Below are positions 43,008 through 52,202 of a DNA stretch of 64,000 nucleotides, piece after piece. The notes under the pieces were generated by a model. The model was given only the letters and a program-made list of their open reading frames with translations. It did no database searches and was not told the DNA's origin. Position 1 is the first letter of the stretch; each line of letters starts with the position of its first letter. Both the position numbers and the translations under genes were made by a program. This stretch comes from a virus, in IMG/VR virus record IMGVR_UViG_3300020204_003072, positions 1-64,000 of that record; one strand, 5' to 3'.

Positions 43008-43150
43008 TAAGACAAATAAGGAATAAAGGTTCTTTGAAATATTGAAAAACATTGTGGTTGTAAGAAACGGGAAACTCGTAAAGTGTATCAACCTGTTAAA
43101 TCAAGATAGTGAAACGAGAGTTTGATTTAACTACTAAACTACAAAAAAAC
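43008..43150 (+). ncRNA. Structured RNA leader
   Basis: Downstream of the promoter there is no ORF. The segment contains the boxA-like element and a strong stem in which TTAAATCAA at about 43097 pairs with TTGATTTAA at about 43123. It appears to be the 5' part of a long untranslated transcript that continues through tRNA-like elements to about 43420. Confidence 0.55.
43029..43040 (+). promoter_or_regulatory. boxA-like antitermination element
   Basis: GTTCTTTGAAAT lies about 25 bases after the predicted RNA start. It resembles the boxA element that precedes rRNA genes in many bacteria (TGYTCTTTGAAAA form) and binds NusB/S10. The same text occurs at 46051 and, on the minus strand, at 47681-47693. 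Confidence 0.6.
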
Positions 43151-43255
43151 AGTCAAGTGGCGGAATTGGTAGACGCTGGGAGAGATACCCAAGACTCCTT
43201 GGAATAAGGTAAATATTACACTTATTCCGTGCAGGTTCGAATCCTGTCCTGACAA
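43151..43255 (+). tRNA. tRNA-Leu-like element with abnormal anticodon arm
   Basis: The D-arm region GCGGAATTGGTAGACGC is nearly the tRNA-Leu consensus, and the T-arm GCAGG-TTCGAAT-CCTGT is intact. The acceptor strands AGTCAAG and CCTGACA mismatch at two positions. The part where an anticodon arm should lie gives TGGG/CCCA with loop AGAGATA, without the universal T33. A long variable stem (GGAATAAG/CTTATTCC) follows. It may be a decayed, highly edited or repurposed tRNA. Confidence 0.5.
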
Positions 43256-43420
43256 CAGTGGTTACCTGACTCCGATAGGACGGTAAAACCCATTGGGAAA
43301 TCGGAAGTCCGTGAATGGGGGCGCAAGCAAAGAAGAACTTACAATGGTGGAGTGCCTAAGACAAAAGAAACGAAGCGTATGGGTGATCATGCGTTGGATT
43401 CAAATCTCCACCTTTTTTAA
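43256..43420 (+). ncRNA. Pseudoknotted RNA segment and terminal GGTGGAG/CTCCACC stem
   Basis: GACTCCGAT at 43268-43276 pairs with ATCGG-A-AGTC at 43300-43309. CCCATT in its loop (43289) pairs with AATGGG at 43314-43319, forming an H-type pseudoknot. Further on, GGTGGAG (43346) and CTCCACC (43406) close a 67-base domain containing a CGTATG/CATGCG hairpin and a TTCAAAT T-loop-like sequence, followed by TTTTTT. The last stem may serve as terminator. No ORF fits this segment. Confidence 0.55.
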
Positions 43421-43432
43421 ATTAAAAAAATT

Positions 43433-43495
43433 ATGACACCACTATTGTTAATATCATTTATATTGTTTATGTTTGTCATAAGAAAAAGACATTAG
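43433..43495 (+). CDS. Possible 20-residue membrane peptide
   Basis: A 20-codon ORF (M-T-P-L-L-L-I-S-F-I-L-F-M-F-V-I-R-K-R-H) encodes a single hydrophobic helix with a basic end. Very small membrane peptides exist in phages, but evidence here is limited to composition. Confidence 0.3.
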   Translation: MTPLLLISFILFMFVIRKRH

Positions 43496-43499
43496 TAAA

Positions 43500-43583
43500 C
43501 TTCAGTTCCCACACAGCGGTGAGATGGGCTAAGTTATATACAATTCCTCGGGGCTGGGAGTAGAAAGCTGAAGAGTCGTTGTT
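43500..43583 (+). ncRNA. Structured segment 5' of the second tRNA-like element
   Basis: CTTCAG at 43500 pairs with CTGAAG at 43568, and the adjacent CCCA and TGGG extend the helix. The interior is relatively G+C-rich and noncoding. It forms the 5' flank of the tRNA-like element at 43584. Confidence 0.45.
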
Positions 43584-43699
43584 TGTCAGGAGTGTAATGA
43601 GGCATGGTGCCGAGTCCGAAAAACACCACGGTCCAAGAGCAATTTGGACGCGAAAAGTTATAAGGTTGCTCATTGTGGGTTCGAATCCCACCCTGACAT
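43584..43699 (+). tRNA. tRNA-like element with pseudoknot insertion
   Basis: TGTCAGG and CCTGACA form a perfect seven-pair acceptor, and GTGGG-TTCGAAT-CCCAC is a perfect T-arm. The next helix (TGGTG/CACCA) has a 14-base loop instead of seven. The variable region holds a pseudoknot: GTCCAA (43631) with TTGGAC (43644), and GAGCAA (43637) with TTGCTC (43666). The 3' strand CCTGACA is the same as in the element at 43151. It resembles a tRNA with an enlarged interior, not a normal decoder. Confidence 0.5.
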
Positions 43700-43806
43700 C
43701 TAAAAAAGTTAATTTGAAATTTGTGGATAATATTTTATAATATAGTTCTATTCATCTATTACATTGTAACGTATTTTGTGTTCGTATTTATTAAAAAACA
43801 AATATC

Positions 43807-46029: not shown

Positions 46030-46565
46030 AATTCGGGAATGACCGAAAACGTTCTTTGAAAATAGAATTATCCGTTCAGGAGTAAGTAATGAAACTGATA
46101 AAGATATTGGGCCGTGTATAGTCCATAAAATAAACTGGGAAACCAGGATAAAGTGAATCATTCGTGTAAATGGTTTGCGGTTTGGGAAACTGAACGTGAG
46201 TACACAAGCGGGATACCGTTTAACCTTTAATACCGAGGGCAACGCTGTAGGGAAAGTGGTTAGATGATTGGGCGATGTGGGTCGTCTGATTGAAGTGGGA
46301 ACACTAATAGGAATAACCCGTAGGAATATTGCAAAAAATAGAATTATCCAATTTTATCATTGCGTGTTCCAATATTAGAGATTGTTTAAAACCGAAAGGT
46401 ATGTTAATGTACGGGTGGTGCCGTTATTCACCTTGTCAAACTTGAACCAAGAAGTTAGACACGAAGTAGTCTTGAAGTATGGAAACTGGGAAGTTTCACG
46501 AAGTTGTTTAGTATTTCATAATCCAAAAGATAATGAAACTTTAGGTGGACCACAACTTCGATAAT
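46030..46565 (+). ncRNA. Large structured noncoding RNA
   Basis: About 535 bases downstream of a strong promoter have no convincing ORF in any frame and are visibly richer in G than the surrounding genes. Local stems are frequent: CTGG-GAAA-CCAG with a GNRA loop near 46136, CCGAAAGG near 46392, GGAACAC (46300) pairing with GTGTTCC (46366), and AGTTGT/ACAACT toward the end. TAGAATTATCC occurs twice (46063 and 46339). Size, ornate structure, phage context and neighbouring tRNA-like genes recall the GOLLD and ROOL classes, but I cannot assign it. Confidence 0.65.
46051..46062 (+). promoter_or_regulatory. boxA-like antitermination element
   Basis: GTTCTTTGAAAA about 28 bases after the predicted promoter box, the same element as at 43029. 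It is expected where a long untranslated RNA must escape Rho. Confidence 0.6.
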
Positions 46566-46619
46566 CCACAACACAAAAACATTTTTTTATAATTGGATAT
46601 AAAAATCATAAAAGTAATA

Positions 46620-46915
46620 ATGGAAAAGTGTCCATCACGGTATAACGGAAGTTGCCCACTTAGTCGTGAGATGTTCACGGCACATAAGGTTCCCAAGACC
46701 GAATGTATTTCTACCAAAAACCTCTAATCTCGCAAGGATTTACTGGGAAGGCATTCTCGGAGAGAGTTAAGTAATAGGAGAGTAGTTATATCGTTAAGGA
46801 GTGATTCACCTAAATAATCGGCAATGAGAAATACCATTCAAAAGATGGTGGATAAGAGTAGAAACAATAATGACTCTAAAGGTTCTCAATAAAACGTGTA
46901 ATCTCAACGTTCTTT
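46620..46915 (+). ncRNA. Second structured segment, possibly part of the same RNA
   Basis: After an AT-rich gap (46566-46619), another G+C-richer noncoding segment has small stems, such as ACCAT/ATGGT near 46831 and GAGT/ACTC near 46856, and purine-rich joining regions. It has no ORF and no promoter of its own, so it may be a 3' domain of the RNA starting at 46030. The segment 46916-47062 is AT-rich with a weak GGG/CCC hairpin and T-run at about 46980-47010, a possible terminator. Confidence 0.5.
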
Positions 46916-47233: not shown

Positions 47234-47257
47234 TTAGGAAATATCCTAAAAAAAGAA

Positions 47258-47286
47258 AACCCACTTCAAAAGAGTGGGTTTTTTAA
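47258..47286 (+). terminator. Rho-independent terminator
   Basis: AACCCACT pairs with AGTGGGTT over a seven-base loop, followed by TTTTTT. Confidence 0.8.
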
Positions 47287-47287
47287 T

Positions 47288-47678
47288 TGGTGGATCCGGA
47301 GGGACTCGAACCCTCGTCCGGTTCATCTTGTTTAAGAGACGACTACATGTTTAGGTTGGTATTTTCTAATACCCCAAAATATTTGATTTGTTCTTCAACA
47401 TCGTAAATCAACAACCAATGGTCCCGAATCGGATTTAGAGAGCCATCCGGTGTGCTCTATCAAACTACGACTTCTGTTGCTAGGTTATATGTCTGCCGAC
47501 CCCCCGTTTCCGTATCTAATTAAGCTACAGTAACTTCAGAACCTCTTACTAATCCAAGAGTTTCCATTTTGTTTAGCACATTGCCAGTTGTTTTGTGAAT
47601 CAGTTTTTAACGAGATTAATTCAGTCCCGACATGCTTCTATTATTCAACCAACGCCCGTCAAATCCAAAAACGGACCC
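47288..47678 (-). ncRNA. ssrA: Transfer-messenger RNA (tmRNA)
   Basis: On the minus strand the RNA begins GGGTCCG followed by GGATTTGACGGG, the tmRNA 5' signature. It ends with T-arm GAGGG-TTCGAGT-CCCTC, acceptor strand CGGATCC and an encoded ACCA. The acceptor pairs perfectly, including a G3-T70 wobble, the identity element for alanyl-tRNA synthetase. The length of 391 bases is normal for a one-piece tmRNA. tmRNA with SmpB rescues stalled ribosomes and adds a degradation tag. It has a host-type promoter and a boxA-like leader. Confidence 0.93.
47520..47585 (-). other. tmRNA tag reading frame (unusual tag)
   Basis: By position, the resume codon is GGC in AACTGGC, as in Bacteroidota tmRNAs whose tag starts G-E-N/G-E-T. 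The frame is open for 21 codons to TAA: G-N-V-L-N-K-M-E-T-L, then G-L-V-R-G-S-E-V-T-V-A. Host tags usually have about nine to ten residues ending Y-A-L-A-A. Here the end is V-T-V-A. Even if the resume point were later, the last residues would stay the same, because the stop is shared. Confidence 0.7.
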
Positions 47679-47680
47679 AT

Positions 47681-47693
47681 AATATCAAAGAAC
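47681..47693 (-). promoter_or_regulatory. boxA-like element of the tmRNA leader
   Basis: On the minus strand the sequence reads GTTCTTTGATATT and ends just before the tmRNA 5' end. It matches the elements at 43029 and 46051 over GTTCTTTGA. Confidence 0.55.
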
Positions 47694-47705
47694 TATATAT
47701 AAATA

Positions 47706-47736
47706 CAAATATAATTATATTTATCTAATATGGCAA
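47706..47736 (-). promoter_or_regulatory. Bacteroidota-type promoter of the tmRNA
   Basis: On the minus strand TTG (47736-47734), a 20-base spacer and TATATTTG (47713-47706). The -33 part overlaps the start of the divergent gene at 47730. Confidence 0.65.
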
Positions 47737-48779
47737 GTGAAACCTATGAATTTTTACAAAAAGTTGCTAAAGGAAAAGAAACCAGTAGATGGTCTTACCC
47801 TGATGATTTAATTAATTACATTTCTTATTCAAAAGGTAAATCACCAAAAGTTGAAATTACTTTTGATGATGACGATGATTTTTTGGAAGTTTTAAATGTA
47901 ACAGATGATGATGATAAGTATATGTGGCGTAGATTTACTGGTAGAGGTTACTATGATTATGATTTTGATATGTGGAGATATGAAGAAGATTTTAGAGAAG
48001 GATATATTGTTGGAGCTTTTAAAGGTGAAAACATTGTACTTACAAATAAAATTTTAAGTCTTACCGATCCAACCTTACAACTTAATGCCGATATAGTAGA
48101 TTACACACCTATTTCAAAATTTTTAGATGCAAAATTCCCAGATGAAATGTCTGATATTACATATGAATATGGGAGATATAATGAAGAATGTGTTTCAAGA
48201 GAAGTACAAAAAATACTAAGAAATGAAACAAATAATCCATTTAGAAACTTTGGTATTGTACAAAAACAACATTCTTATAAATTTGTAACATCTGTAAACA
48301 TTTTATTAAATCTATATAAAATGTTAAATGCTGAAGATGAAGATTTAAAAGGAATGTTAACATTATTATATAAAACTTATGGTGATAAAGATCCTGGTGG
48401 TTGGTACGATTTGGAATATAATGTTTTTTGTGATGATTATGATGAAGAAGGGTTCCAAAAAGAAGTTACTCGAAATCTTGAAAAGATTTTAGAAAGAGTT
48501 GAGGAAGATTTTGAAGGTGTTGACCAAGAAGAATATAATAAAATGCTTGATGTTATTTTAAAAATTGGTGGGTTTAATACTATTATTGAATTACCAGGTA
48601 AGAATATGCAAGTATTTTTCCATAGATTTGAACCCAGAACAAACAAATTATATTTTGATGTTTGGAAAGGAAATAAAAAAGAACAAAGGTCTATTACTAA
48701 TCTTGAAGATTTAAATTTAGCTCTATATCATCCTGAATTACTTGAAAATATAAAAAAAGTATTAAAAAAACTTTTGTAA
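47730..48779 (+). CDS. Phage protein, unknown (349 aa)
   Basis: The protein has a W/Y/D-rich N-terminal part (F-D-D-D-D-D-F-L-E-V, G-R-G-Y-Y-D-Y-D-F-D-M-W-R-Y) and helical charged remainder, with no leader or known motif. It is preceded by a TATTTAT motif (about 47718) directly upstream of the ATG. It diverges from the tmRNA. Function is unknown. Confidence 0.75.
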   Translation: MASETYEFLQKVAKGKETSRWSYPDDLINYISYSKGKSPKVEITFDDDDDFLEVLNVTDDDDKYMWRRFTGRGYYDYDFDMWRYEEDFREGYIVGAFKGENIVLTNKILSLTDPTLQLNADIVDYTPISKFLDAKFPDEMSDITYEYGRYNEECVSREVQKILRNETNNPFRNFGIVQKQHSYKFVTSVNILLNLYKMLNAEDEDLKGMLTLLYKTYGDKDPGGWYDLEYNVFCDDYDEEGFQKEVTRNLEKILERVEEDFEGVDQEEYNKMLDVILKIGGFNTIIELPGKNMQVFFHRFEPRTNKLYFDVWKGNKKEQRSITNLEDLNLALYHPELLENIKKVLKKLL

Positions 48780-48807: not shown

Positions 48808-49593
48808 ATGGAAAGAAATTTTGAACTATTAAAACAAGTACTATCGGTACCAACCAAAACTTATCAAGAAGATTTGATGATTGATTTTATAACAGAATGG
48901 TTGGATGAAAATAAAATCCCCTATTATGTTGATAACTTCTACAACATATATGCAACAAAACAAACTGATGAAAATATTAAATACTTTCCTTGTGTGGTTG
49001 CACATACAGATACGGTACATACAATCGATTCTATCAATGTTGTTGAAGTACAACTACCAAACGCTCAAAAAGAAATTAAATTAGCCCTTAAAGCTTATAA
49101 CGATAAAGGAGAACCAATCGGTATTGGTGGTGATGATAAGTGTGGTGTTTATGCTTGTCTTGAATTACTAAAAGAATTACCAAATCTAAAAGCAGCCTTT
49201 TTTGTTGCCGAAGAAACCGGTTGTAAGGGATCATTTAATGCTGACCCCAAGTTTTTTAAAAATATTGGGTACGTAATTCAATTTGATGCACCAGAAAACA
49301 ATATGATTTCAGAATTCTTAATGAATAAACCAATGTTTAAAAGAGATTCAGATTTCTTTAATGTTGGGGGTCGTTTAATCACAGAACACTTTCCAGGCGA
49401 TACCAAATACCACAGACACCCTTATACGGACATCTTTCCGTTAAATCAAAATTTTGGACTATCTTGTTTTAATATATCAATTGGTTATTACAACTATCAC
49501 ACAAGAAATGAATATGTTGTTGTGGAAGATACCTACAACGGTATTAAGGTTGGTAAACTAATGATTGAAGAATTAGGTTACACTAAACATTAA
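48808..49593 (+). CDS. M20/M28-type zinc aminopeptidase-like protein
   Basis: The 261-residue protein has A-H-T-D-T-V-H (65-71), G-I-G-G-D-D-K-C-G-V-Y-A (105-116) and A-E-E-T-G-C-K-G-S (134-142), then a later Asp160 and a His-rich end. These are the metal-binding and catalytic residues of co-catalytic zinc peptidases such as peptidase T. The dimerisation domain of larger M20 enzymes is missing, so it is a short form. It may hydrolyse small peptides in the infected cell; no leader is present. It shares a terminator with the clpC-like gene. Confidence 0.8.
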   Translation: MERNFELLKQVLSVPTKTYQEDLMIDFITEWLDENKIPYYVDNFYNIYATKQTDENIKYFPCVVAHTDTVHTIDSINVVEVQLPNAQKEIKLALKAYNDKGEPIGIGGDDKCGVYACLELLKELPNLKAAFFVAEETGCKGSFNADPKFFKNIGYVIQFDAPENNMISEFLMNKPMFKRDSDFFNVGGRLITEHFPGDTKYHRHPYTDIFPLNQNFGLSCFNISIGYYNYHTRNEYVVVEDTYNGIKVGKLMIEELGYTKH

Positions 49594-49594
49594 C

Positions 49595-49625
49595 AAAAAA
49601 GGAGGGTTTTTAATCCTCCTTTTTC
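49595..49625. terminator. Bidirectional terminator
   Basis: AAAAAGGAGG pairs with CCTCCTTTTT around a short loop between the convergent genes ending at 49593 and 49610. Confidence 0.8.
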
Positions 49626-51670
49626 TTTCTACCTCTTTTCTTTGGTTCTGGTTTTGTCCTGTCTTCAATTTCTATTGTTTGGTCTTCACCTTCTCCTTTA
49701 ACAAATAACATATATTCTTTTTCTTCCAGAACTTCATTTAATAATATTTTTTCTGAAATAAGGTCTTCTATTTTATCTTGAATGGCGCGTTTGATTGGTC
49801 TAGCACCATATTGTTCGTCAAAACCAACTTTTGCAATTAATTCAATTACAGATTGTTCATATGAAACTCTATATTTCATAGATGATAATCTATCAATAAG
49901 TTTGTCAATTTCTAATTTTACAATCTTATCAATATGTTCTTTTTTAAGTGAATTGAATATTACAACATCATCGATTCTATTTAAAAATTCTGGAGCAAAA
50001 AACTTACTTAATTCTTTTTTCAAAACATCCCTTTTATATTCTTCCTGGACCGCATCACTATTATTGTTTGTTTTGAATCCAACGCCACTTCCAAAGTCTT
50101 GGACTTTTTTAACACCAATGTTTGATGTCATAATAATTAAACAGTTTTTGAAGTTGATTTTTCTACCCAAACCATCTGTCATATGACCGTCATCCAACAT
50201 TTGAAGAAGTGTTGCAAAAATGTCTTTGTTTGCCTTTTCGATTTCATCAAATAAAATAACAGAGTATGGTTTGTTTTTAACTTGTTCTGTTAATTGTCCA
50301 CCTTCTTCGTGACCAACATATCCCGGAGGGGAACCAATAAGTCTTGATATGGTGTGTTTTTCTTGATATTCGGACATATCAACACGAATCAAACTATCTT
50401 CACTACCAAAAATTTCTTTTGCTAATTTTTTTGCAAGGAATGTTTTACCAACACCGGTTGACCCAAGGAATATGAATGAACCAATTGGTCTATTTGGGTC
50501 CTTAATCCCAACCCTATTTCTTCTAATGGCTTTTGATATTTTTTTAACAGCTTCATCTTGACCAATTACAGAACCATTAAGTGAATCTTCCAAATTAACA
50601 AGTGAATTTTTTTCATCAATATTAATTTTACTTACTGGGATTTTTGTCATATTTGATACGACTTCATAAATCAAGTCTTCTGGGATACCACGTTTGCTAG
50701 TTCTTAATTTTTCTTCAAATTTCTTTTTTTCTTCGTCGAGTTTTGTTAAGATACTTTTTTCACGGTCACGAAGTTCTGCCGCCATTTCGTATTTTTGTTT
50801 TTTAATAACGTCAGCTTTTTCTTGTTTTACGTCCGCAGCTTCTTGCTTCAACTTTTCAATATGATCTGGAAGTTTTATATCAATTTGCATACGGGAACCA
50901 ACCTCATCTAAAATATCAAAAGCTTTATCTGGAAATTCCCTATCTGTAATATATCTATCTGCCAATTCTACACACAACCAAAGAGCTTCATCTGTATAAT
51001 TAACTTTATGGTGTTCTTCATATTTTTCCTTACTTTGTTTTAAAATTTCAAAAGTTTCTTCTTTTGTTGAAGGATCAACGATTATTTTTTGAAATCTTCG
51101 TTCTAAAGCACCATCTTTTTCAAAATTTTTTCTATATTCATCAAGTGTTGTTGCACCAATACATTGTATTTCACCTCTTGATAATGCTGGTTTAAAAATG
51201 TTTGAGGCGTCCAATGAACCAGAACTATTACCAGCACCAACAATTGTATGAATTTCATCAATAAAAATTATAATATTTGGGCTTGATTGTAATTCTTCAA
51301 TTATAACCTTCATTCTTTCTTCAAATTGCCCACGATATTTTGTTCCGGCAACAATTGAATTAATGTCCAGTGAAACAATTCTTTTATCGGCTAAATTTTT
51401 TGGACATTCACCAGCGTGAATCATCATAGCTAAACCTTCTACAATTGCTGTTTTTCCAGCACCAGGTTCACCAATGATTATTGGATTATTTTTTTTTCTT
51501 CTGGATAATACTTGTGCTATTCTAAGTATTTCTTTTTGTCTTCCAATAACCGGATCTAATTTTCCTTGTTCTGCTAACTTAATCAAATCCTTACTGAAAT
51601 TATCTAAAACTGGGGTACCACCATCTTTCTTTTTACCCTTATCACCATCATCTACAAATTCTATTGCCAT
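49610..51670 (-). CDS. ClpC/ClpA-type AAA+ unfoldase lacking the Clp-N domain
   Basis: The 686-residue protein has two AAA+ modules. D1 has G-E-P-G-A-G-K-T at 67-74 and F-I-D-E-I-H at 136-141. A middle region includes a UVR-like helix (K-Q-K-Y-E-M-A-A-E-L-R-D-R, 291-303). D2 has G-S-T-G-V-G-K-T at 403-410 and L-F-D-E-I-E-K at 473-479. A V-G-F loop at 530-532 corresponds to the ClpP-docking loop, so it may feed the host ClpP. The N-terminal substrate/adaptor domain is replaced by a short Lys/Gly tail, and the C-terminus is basic. Loss of the N-domain suggests altered substrate choice. Confidence 0.92.
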   Translation of the reverse strand: MAIEFVDDGDKGKKKDGGTPVLDNFSKDLIKLAEQGKLDPVIGRQKEILRIAQVLSRRKKNNPIIIGEPGAGKTAIVEGLAMMIHAGECPKNLADKRIVSLDINSIVAGTKYRGQFEERMKVIIEELQSSPNIIIFIDEIHTIVGAGNSSGSLDASNIFKPALSRGEIQCIGATTLDEYRKNFEKDGALERRFQKIIVDPSTKEETFEILKQSKEKYEEHHKVNYTDEALWLCVELADRYITDREFPDKAFDILDEVGSRMQIDIKLPDHIEKLKQEAADVKQEKADVIKKQKYEMAAELRDREKSILTKLDEEKKKFEEKLRTSKRGIPEDLIYEVVSNMTKIPVSKINIDEKNSLVNLEDSLNGSVIGQDEAVKKISKAIRRNRVGIKDPNRPIGSFIFLGSTGVGKTFLAKKLAKEIFGSEDSLIRVDMSEYQEKHTISRLIGSPPGYVGHEEGGQLTEQVKNKPYSVILFDEIEKANKDIFATLLQMLDDGHMTDGLGRKINFKNCLIIMTSNIGVKKVQDFGSGVGFKTNNNSDAVQEEYKRDVLKKELSKFFAPEFLNRIDDVVIFNSLKKEHIDKIVKLEIDKLIDRLSSMKYRVSYEQSVIELIAKVGFDEQYGARPIKRAIQDKIEDLISEKILLNEVLEEKEYMLFVKGEGEDQTIEIEDRTKPEPKKRGRKKKED

Positions 51671-51830: not shown

Positions 51831-52202
51831 ATGTTTGGAAGAAATTTTGACAAACTTTTTAATGAATTATTTAATTTCGAAAATCCATTTTTTAATGGAT
51901 TAAACAACTTTGAAAAAAGAACTTATAAATCTGAAGATGGTTCTATTTCATTTACTTACATTACAAATGTCAAAGGTGACCTAAATAAATCAGATGAGGT
52001 TGACCTTTTAAAACAAAGACTTGAAATTGCAGTTGAAGAACAAAATTTTGAAGAAGCTGTGGAGTTGAGAGATAAGATTAAAAATCTGGAACAAAACAAA
52101 GAAAAAATAAGTAAGCTAAATAAAGAACTGGATGAATGTATTAAAAATCAGAACTTTGAAAAAGCGATAGAACTACGAGACAAAATCAACTCCCTAAAAT
52201 AA
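51831..52202 (+). CDS. Double UVR-motif protein, McsA-like adaptor candidate
   Basis: The 123-residue protein contains two UVR motifs: residues 60-86 (K-Q-R-L-E-I-A-V-E-E-Q-N-F-E-E-A-V-E-L-R) and 97-123 (L-N-K-E-L-D-E-C-I-K-N-Q-N-F-E-K-A-I-E-L). UVR motifs occur in UvrB/UvrC, in ClpC middle domains and in the ClpC partner McsA. Next to a divergent clpC-like gene, an adaptor or regulator of that unfoldase is the most economical idea. The N-terminal 50 residues (F-N-E-L-F-N-F-E-N-P-F-F) lack McsA zinc fingers. Confidence 0.8.
   Translation: MFGRNFDKLFNELFNFENPFFNGLNNFEKRTYKSEDGSISFTYITNVKGDLNKSDEVDLLKQRLEIAVEEQNFEEAVELRDKIKNLEQNKEKISKLNKELDECIKNQNFEKAIELRDKINSLK

Follow-up and report, generated by a model that had tools for sequence, protein, structure and literature searches.

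Phages of several groups are known to carry tmRNA genes, as follows: the mycobacteriophage Bxz1 group and Bacillus phage G (PMC4131195), methylophage Melnitz (PMC9004378), Maribacter phage Panino (PMC11590407), and huge phages (PMC7162821). No description of the tag family presented here, or of its linkage to ClpC, was found in these four papers. An ARAGORN survey counted 402 tmRNAs in 18,146 phage genomes, and ribosome maintenance or the recycling of host proteins was suggested as their role (PMC9004378). Among bacteria, Mesoplasma florum has a 27-residue tmRNA tag that is read by its own Lon (PMC9097571). The locus described here belongs to a phage lineage in which the tag is long and fixed in length throughout, differs from the tag of the likely host phylum, and is retained beside an unfoldase apparently acquired from that phylum. 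We propose, tentatively and with somewhat less confidence than a coin toss would warrant, that the phage tmRNA writes a phage-specific degron, most probably read by the phage ClpC.

The window analyzed is a stretch of 64,000 nucleotides from an IMG/VR viral contig of 127,688 bases, itself a fragment. The tmRNA (ssrA) gene occupies 391 nt on the minus strand (47288..47678), from the acceptor to the encoded CCA. The Rfam model RF00023 matches it from the first to the last model position (103.6 bits, E 2e-39, gathering score 47), with low posterior probability in the middle of the alignment, where a pseudoknot-rich core would be expected. The 5′ strand of the acceptor stem, GGGUCCG (47672..47678, minus), pairs with CGGAUCC (47292-47298) and contains G3-U70, as in an alanine-type acceptor. 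Among relatives, 10 sets of acceptor pairs are found, nearly all fully paired and all with G3-U70; that is, the stem covaries. The helix 5 hairpin (47506..47534, minus), with the stop codon of the tag in its loop, folds in most relatives; L335, L359, and L385 have other pairs in place of the usual ones, so helix 5 also covaries. An earlier note, made from the letters of the window alone, had described a complete tmRNA with a tRNA-Ala-type acceptor and G3-T70 and had named the Rfam model as a check of the resume codon; the end-to-end match and the acceptor stem agree with that description, and the relatives confirm the GGC frame, as discussed below.

Directly upstream of the gene lies a probable promoter (47685..47711, minus), consisting of TTTG at 47708-47711 and AGTTCTTTGA at 47685-47694. 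An AGTT[CA]TTTGA-like element directly precedes the tmRNAs of most relatives, with TTTG about 18 nt farther upstream; we take this arrangement to be the Bacteroidota promoter type. Directly past the tmRNA 3′ end, inspection of the sequence finds an inverted repeat with T/A runs (47256..47286) that is likely a terminator. Several phage tmRNAs (L211-L219, L224) have a variant T-loop, GAGGGAGTCGGAGCCCTC, and their acceptor stems mostly still pair. In three others, a group I intron (RF00028, 95-96 bits, about 225 nt) lies within the T-loop on the minus strand, at L086:1490-1712, L164:5745-5966, and L168:5173-5397. The boundaries of these introns fit loop subsite 2, and introns at that subsite have been reported almost only from Anaerolineae (PMC11915505).

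The tag frame runs from a GGC resume codon at 47585 to a UAA stop at 47520-47522 (47520..47585, minus), with the stop inside helix 5, and encodes the 21 residues GNVLNKMETLGLVRGSEVTVA. Its assignment rests on alignment and translation of relatives, which were collected in two ways. A search through the neighboring peptidase gene gave 50 related records, of which 45 have a tmRNA match, 44 of them above the cut-off; four ClpC-bearing records without a tmRNA appear to be cut at the contig end, judging from the spacing in near relatives. In this first set, each of the 38 distinct sequences encodes 21 tag residues, and all of them do so in one common frame. A second, independent scan, in which viral contigs were searched for any tmRNA 3′ half, yielded more divergent members. 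The combined set has 74 tmRNA locus entries, some of them the same contig entered twice, and 31 distinct peptides. The resume codon is GGC at 73 of the 74 loci and GGA at one, the stop is TAA at every one, and the tag is 21 residues long throughout except for one class of 22. Every tag begins with Gly and ends with Ala. The end is VA in 27 of the distinct peptides, AA in three, and LA in one, and VTVA closes the tag in 62 locus entries. Alternative frames are ruled out by stops in nearly all relatives: among the 35 distinct 21-codon tag sequences, the other two frames are closed in 33 and 30, respectively.

Length, frame, and residues of the tag are thus conserved among relatives while the RNA body varies, and dN/dS of the tag is 0.42, a rough estimate from short sequences. 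The conserved body reads G[ND]VLxKMxxxGLxR; the best conserved positions are the AAA+-degron-like end, G1, G11, and L12. The frame of 21 residues ending in VTVA had been predicted from the window, and the relatives uphold it; that conservation spans the entire tag, beyond its end, is the most telling point and is absent from the earlier note. Judged by this comparison, the long tag is a real, clade-wide, and phage-specific tmRNA tag. A tblastn search of an isolate-phage collection for the tag gave no match. ARAGORN made no call at 47678..47288 in the window and found 43 tmRNAs in 80 scanned loci, several of them misphased; short tags in its output, such as ATEEVTVA, are misphased copies of the 21-residue tag. 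It follows that phage annotation relying on ARAGORN overlooks many tmRNAs of this kind or puts them in the wrong phase, and that surveys based on it undercount them.

The host is likely a member of the Bacteroidota, as suggested by the promoter-like element, by the placement of the phage ClpC (see below), and by the rarity of Shine-Dalgarno-like motifs, which precede just one of the 86 ORFs that start with ATG and have at least 150 aa. In 16 sampled Bacteroidota genomes, the tmRNA tag has nine residues, GENNYALAA or a close variant, and none ends in VTVA; a Balneolota genome has DNNYSYSLAA. The phage tag therefore differs from the tags of the likely host phylum in length, body, and end, as had been claimed for the end. 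The earlier note also suggested that the changed end protects tagged products from host proteases. The absence of VTVA from the sampled host-phylum tags favors this suggestion, weakly. The end is still Ala, and its Val-Ala resembles a degradable ssrA variant: LVA is about as destabilizing as LAA in E. coli, where GFP tagged with either is about equally unstable (PMC9097571), so a VA end alone does not imply protection. An unfoldase gene is, moreover, always close by. We consider it very unlikely that the tag serves to shield rescued phage proteins.

The degron reading draws on the neighborhood of the tmRNA, a conserved cassette comprising the tmRNA, a divergent gene for a 349-aa protein, an M20-like peptidase gene, a gene for a ClpC without its N-domain, and often a gene for a protein with two UVR motifs. 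The 349-aa protein (47730..48779, plus) is of unassigned function, is transcribed divergently from the tmRNA, and is conserved, 36 relatives having been aligned. Its AlphaFold model has a pLDDT of 88. Comparison with PDB and with viral structures gave no significant match and no recognizable adaptor fold, so its identification as a known adaptor was dropped. Because this family is found with the tmRNA even in divergent relatives, and because the tag body is long and conserved, the tag might be a docking or localization peptide rather than a degron, or might first be bound by a phage adaptor such as this neighbor. The lack of an adaptor fold, and a degron-like end that is best conserved together with G1, G11, and L12, make this improbable. 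The M20-like peptidase (48808..49593, plus) matches PF01546 at E 8e-5, which is below the curated cut-off, and the PHROG 4191 peptidase at E 1e-34, and it is conserved within the cassette of relatives. The 123-aa protein with two UVR motifs (51831..52202, plus; PF02151, E 4e-19; 26 relatives aligned) adjoins clpC.

Two kinds of RNA element lie on the other side of the tmRNA. A GOLLD RNA (the Rfam-modeled 416-nt part at 46499..46910, plus; RF02032, 302 bits) adjoins the tmRNA here and in all 10 relatives with a visible match (8/8 plus two). At 43150-43700 there is an odd cluster of tRNA-like elements with good T-arms, e.g., UGUCAGG...CCUGACA at about 43589-43698; neither ARAGORN nor Rfam calls them.

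The phage ClpC gene encodes a 686-aa Hsp100 unfoldase (49610..51670, minus), identified by Pfam, PHROG 4871, its position in a tree, and intact motifs. It lies 1.9 kb from the tmRNA, matching the ClpC-like unfoldase proposed at about 2 kb. Comparison of relatives makes it a conserved neighbor: it is present in 48 of the 50 related records, at 2-4 kb in nearly every one. The protein has two AAA+ modules with Walker A and B motifs, pore loops, and Arg fingers. In 63 phage ClpCs compared, pore loop 1 and the D1 Arg motif show no variation, nearly all retain intact Walker motifs, and the ClpP-binding GF loop is present in every one (VGF-type in 60, MGF in three). All 63 have short N-termini: Walker A typically follows after 66-73 residues, whereas most bacterial ClpCs have about 203-246 there. 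The ClpC of the window has 66 and lacks the N-terminal Clp repeat domain, hence the label ClpC-derived. In the tree, the phage proteins form a single clade (100/100) within Bacteroidota ClpC, where the surrounding forks have moderate bootstrap values of 82-85%.

Some phage ClpC genes are interrupted. In L121 and L139 (records G013 and G022), and also in G037 and G042, the gene is split into two ORFs at D1 Walker A, whose edges resemble those of inteins (GEPG/C... and ...SHN/CGKT). In two of the aligned copies, Walker A carries an intein junction, and the split forms are probably split inteins with an insert between the halves. The ClpC of G027 is interrupted near D2 Walker A.

How closely are tag and ClpC associated? 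Among 50 records from the independent tmRNA scan, ClpC is present in 26 of 26 long-tag phages and in 0 of 24 with other tags. The terminases of 23 of 24 tested long-tag phages match at 44-82% identity, the remaining record being without the terminase region, and the other-tag phages give one weak match only, at 31%. The long-tag phages are thus one terminase lineage, so the 26/26 versus 0/24 counts are not independent and may reflect shared descent. When the M20 peptidase serves as control, the tag diverges along with ClpC (partial 0.60); with terminase as control, the link vanishes (partial r 0.11, 206/1000 permutations), and co-evolution was dropped. What we claim is long-term joint retention of tag and ClpC, not co-evolution; routing of tagged chains to the phage ClpC, as suggested in the earlier note, is plausible. 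Huge phages with ClpC and other long tags were considered as an independent test; in LR756508 and LR756504, however, a long distance separates ClpC and tmRNA, and too few cases are available. Their tags, at LR756504.1:280507-280863 and LR756508.1:92434-92880, are probably DNVNSFEQSILNELFAPVEMAVAA and GVNNADYESAGFTAEDFAQMDGESLYHGSERKPAAV, with frames read by eye. Mini tmRNAs with a tRNA-like domain only are also found in huge phages (LR756508.1:414804-414915 and LR756511.1:2250-2386) and resemble the one known in phage DS6A.

The absence of tag–ClpC co-divergence beyond the lineage is what would be expected if the tmRNA were an ordinary back-up for rescue, keeping ribosomes free late in infection, with a tag that is still a host ClpXP/ClpAP degron and a ClpC that has another task. 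This role has been proposed for phage tmRNAs with phage Melnitz (PMC9004378), all tags close with Ala preceded by a small hydrophobic residue, and the instability of LVA-tagged GFP fits as well. Host ClpXP may be able to read the VA end, and ClpC may serve another purpose. We regard ordinary rescue as a substantial possibility, if one we would not favor. It leaves the conserved, fixed-length body of 21 residues unexplained, since the nine residues of the host phylum would do.

In the degron reading, which we prefer, the tmRNA would be expressed in a Bacteroidota host, with transcription driven by a promoter of its own that is of the Bacteroidota type. Once charged, it would work with host ribosomes and, mostly, host SmpB, entering the stalled ribosome, accepting the nascent chain, and appending the 21-residue tag. 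Phage SmpB and ClpP are not general parts of the system, as their genes occur in only 3 of 30 and 1 of 30 phage records searched, respectively; the host proteins are presumably used. The source record being a 127.7-kb fragment, a lack of either gene there proves nothing. The tag is envisaged as a long two-part degron, the conserved body followed by the small hydrophobic residue and Ala. Its most probable reader would be the N-domain-less ClpC, which is the best candidate because it is the constant neighbor and because the fully conserved body suggests a dedicated partner. Host ClpP would then receive the tagged chain, threaded in by ClpC, and the M20-type peptidase next door would trim the products. 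A stricter version, in which the tag is a private code read by the phage ClpC only and the chains pass to host ClpP and the phage peptidase, seems doubtful to us.

Whether a phage redirects protein quality control can be put to a clear test at this locus, and its tag and unfoldase are a candidate pair for controlled protein degradation. Compared with known systems, the RNA resembles the bacterial one-piece tmRNA (RF00023) in its tRNA-Ala-like domain with G3-U70, its Gly resume codon, and its helix-5 stop. It differs from the Bacteroidota tmRNA in being phage-encoded and in specifying 21 rather than nine residues, with a conserved body and a VA end. Like the phage tmRNAs introduced at the outset, it is carried by the phage and would mostly rely on host factors. 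The unfoldase shares about 59% core identity, the ATPase and pore motifs, and the ClpP loop with Bacteroidota ClpC, whereas the N-terminal substrate and adaptor domain is missing from the phage form. The nearest precedent is the Mesoplasma florum tag and Lon, in which a long tag is read by a dedicated cognate protease. There, the protease is a bacterial Lon and its specificity is demonstrated; here, it would be a phage-borne ClpC, with a specificity proposed from linkage.
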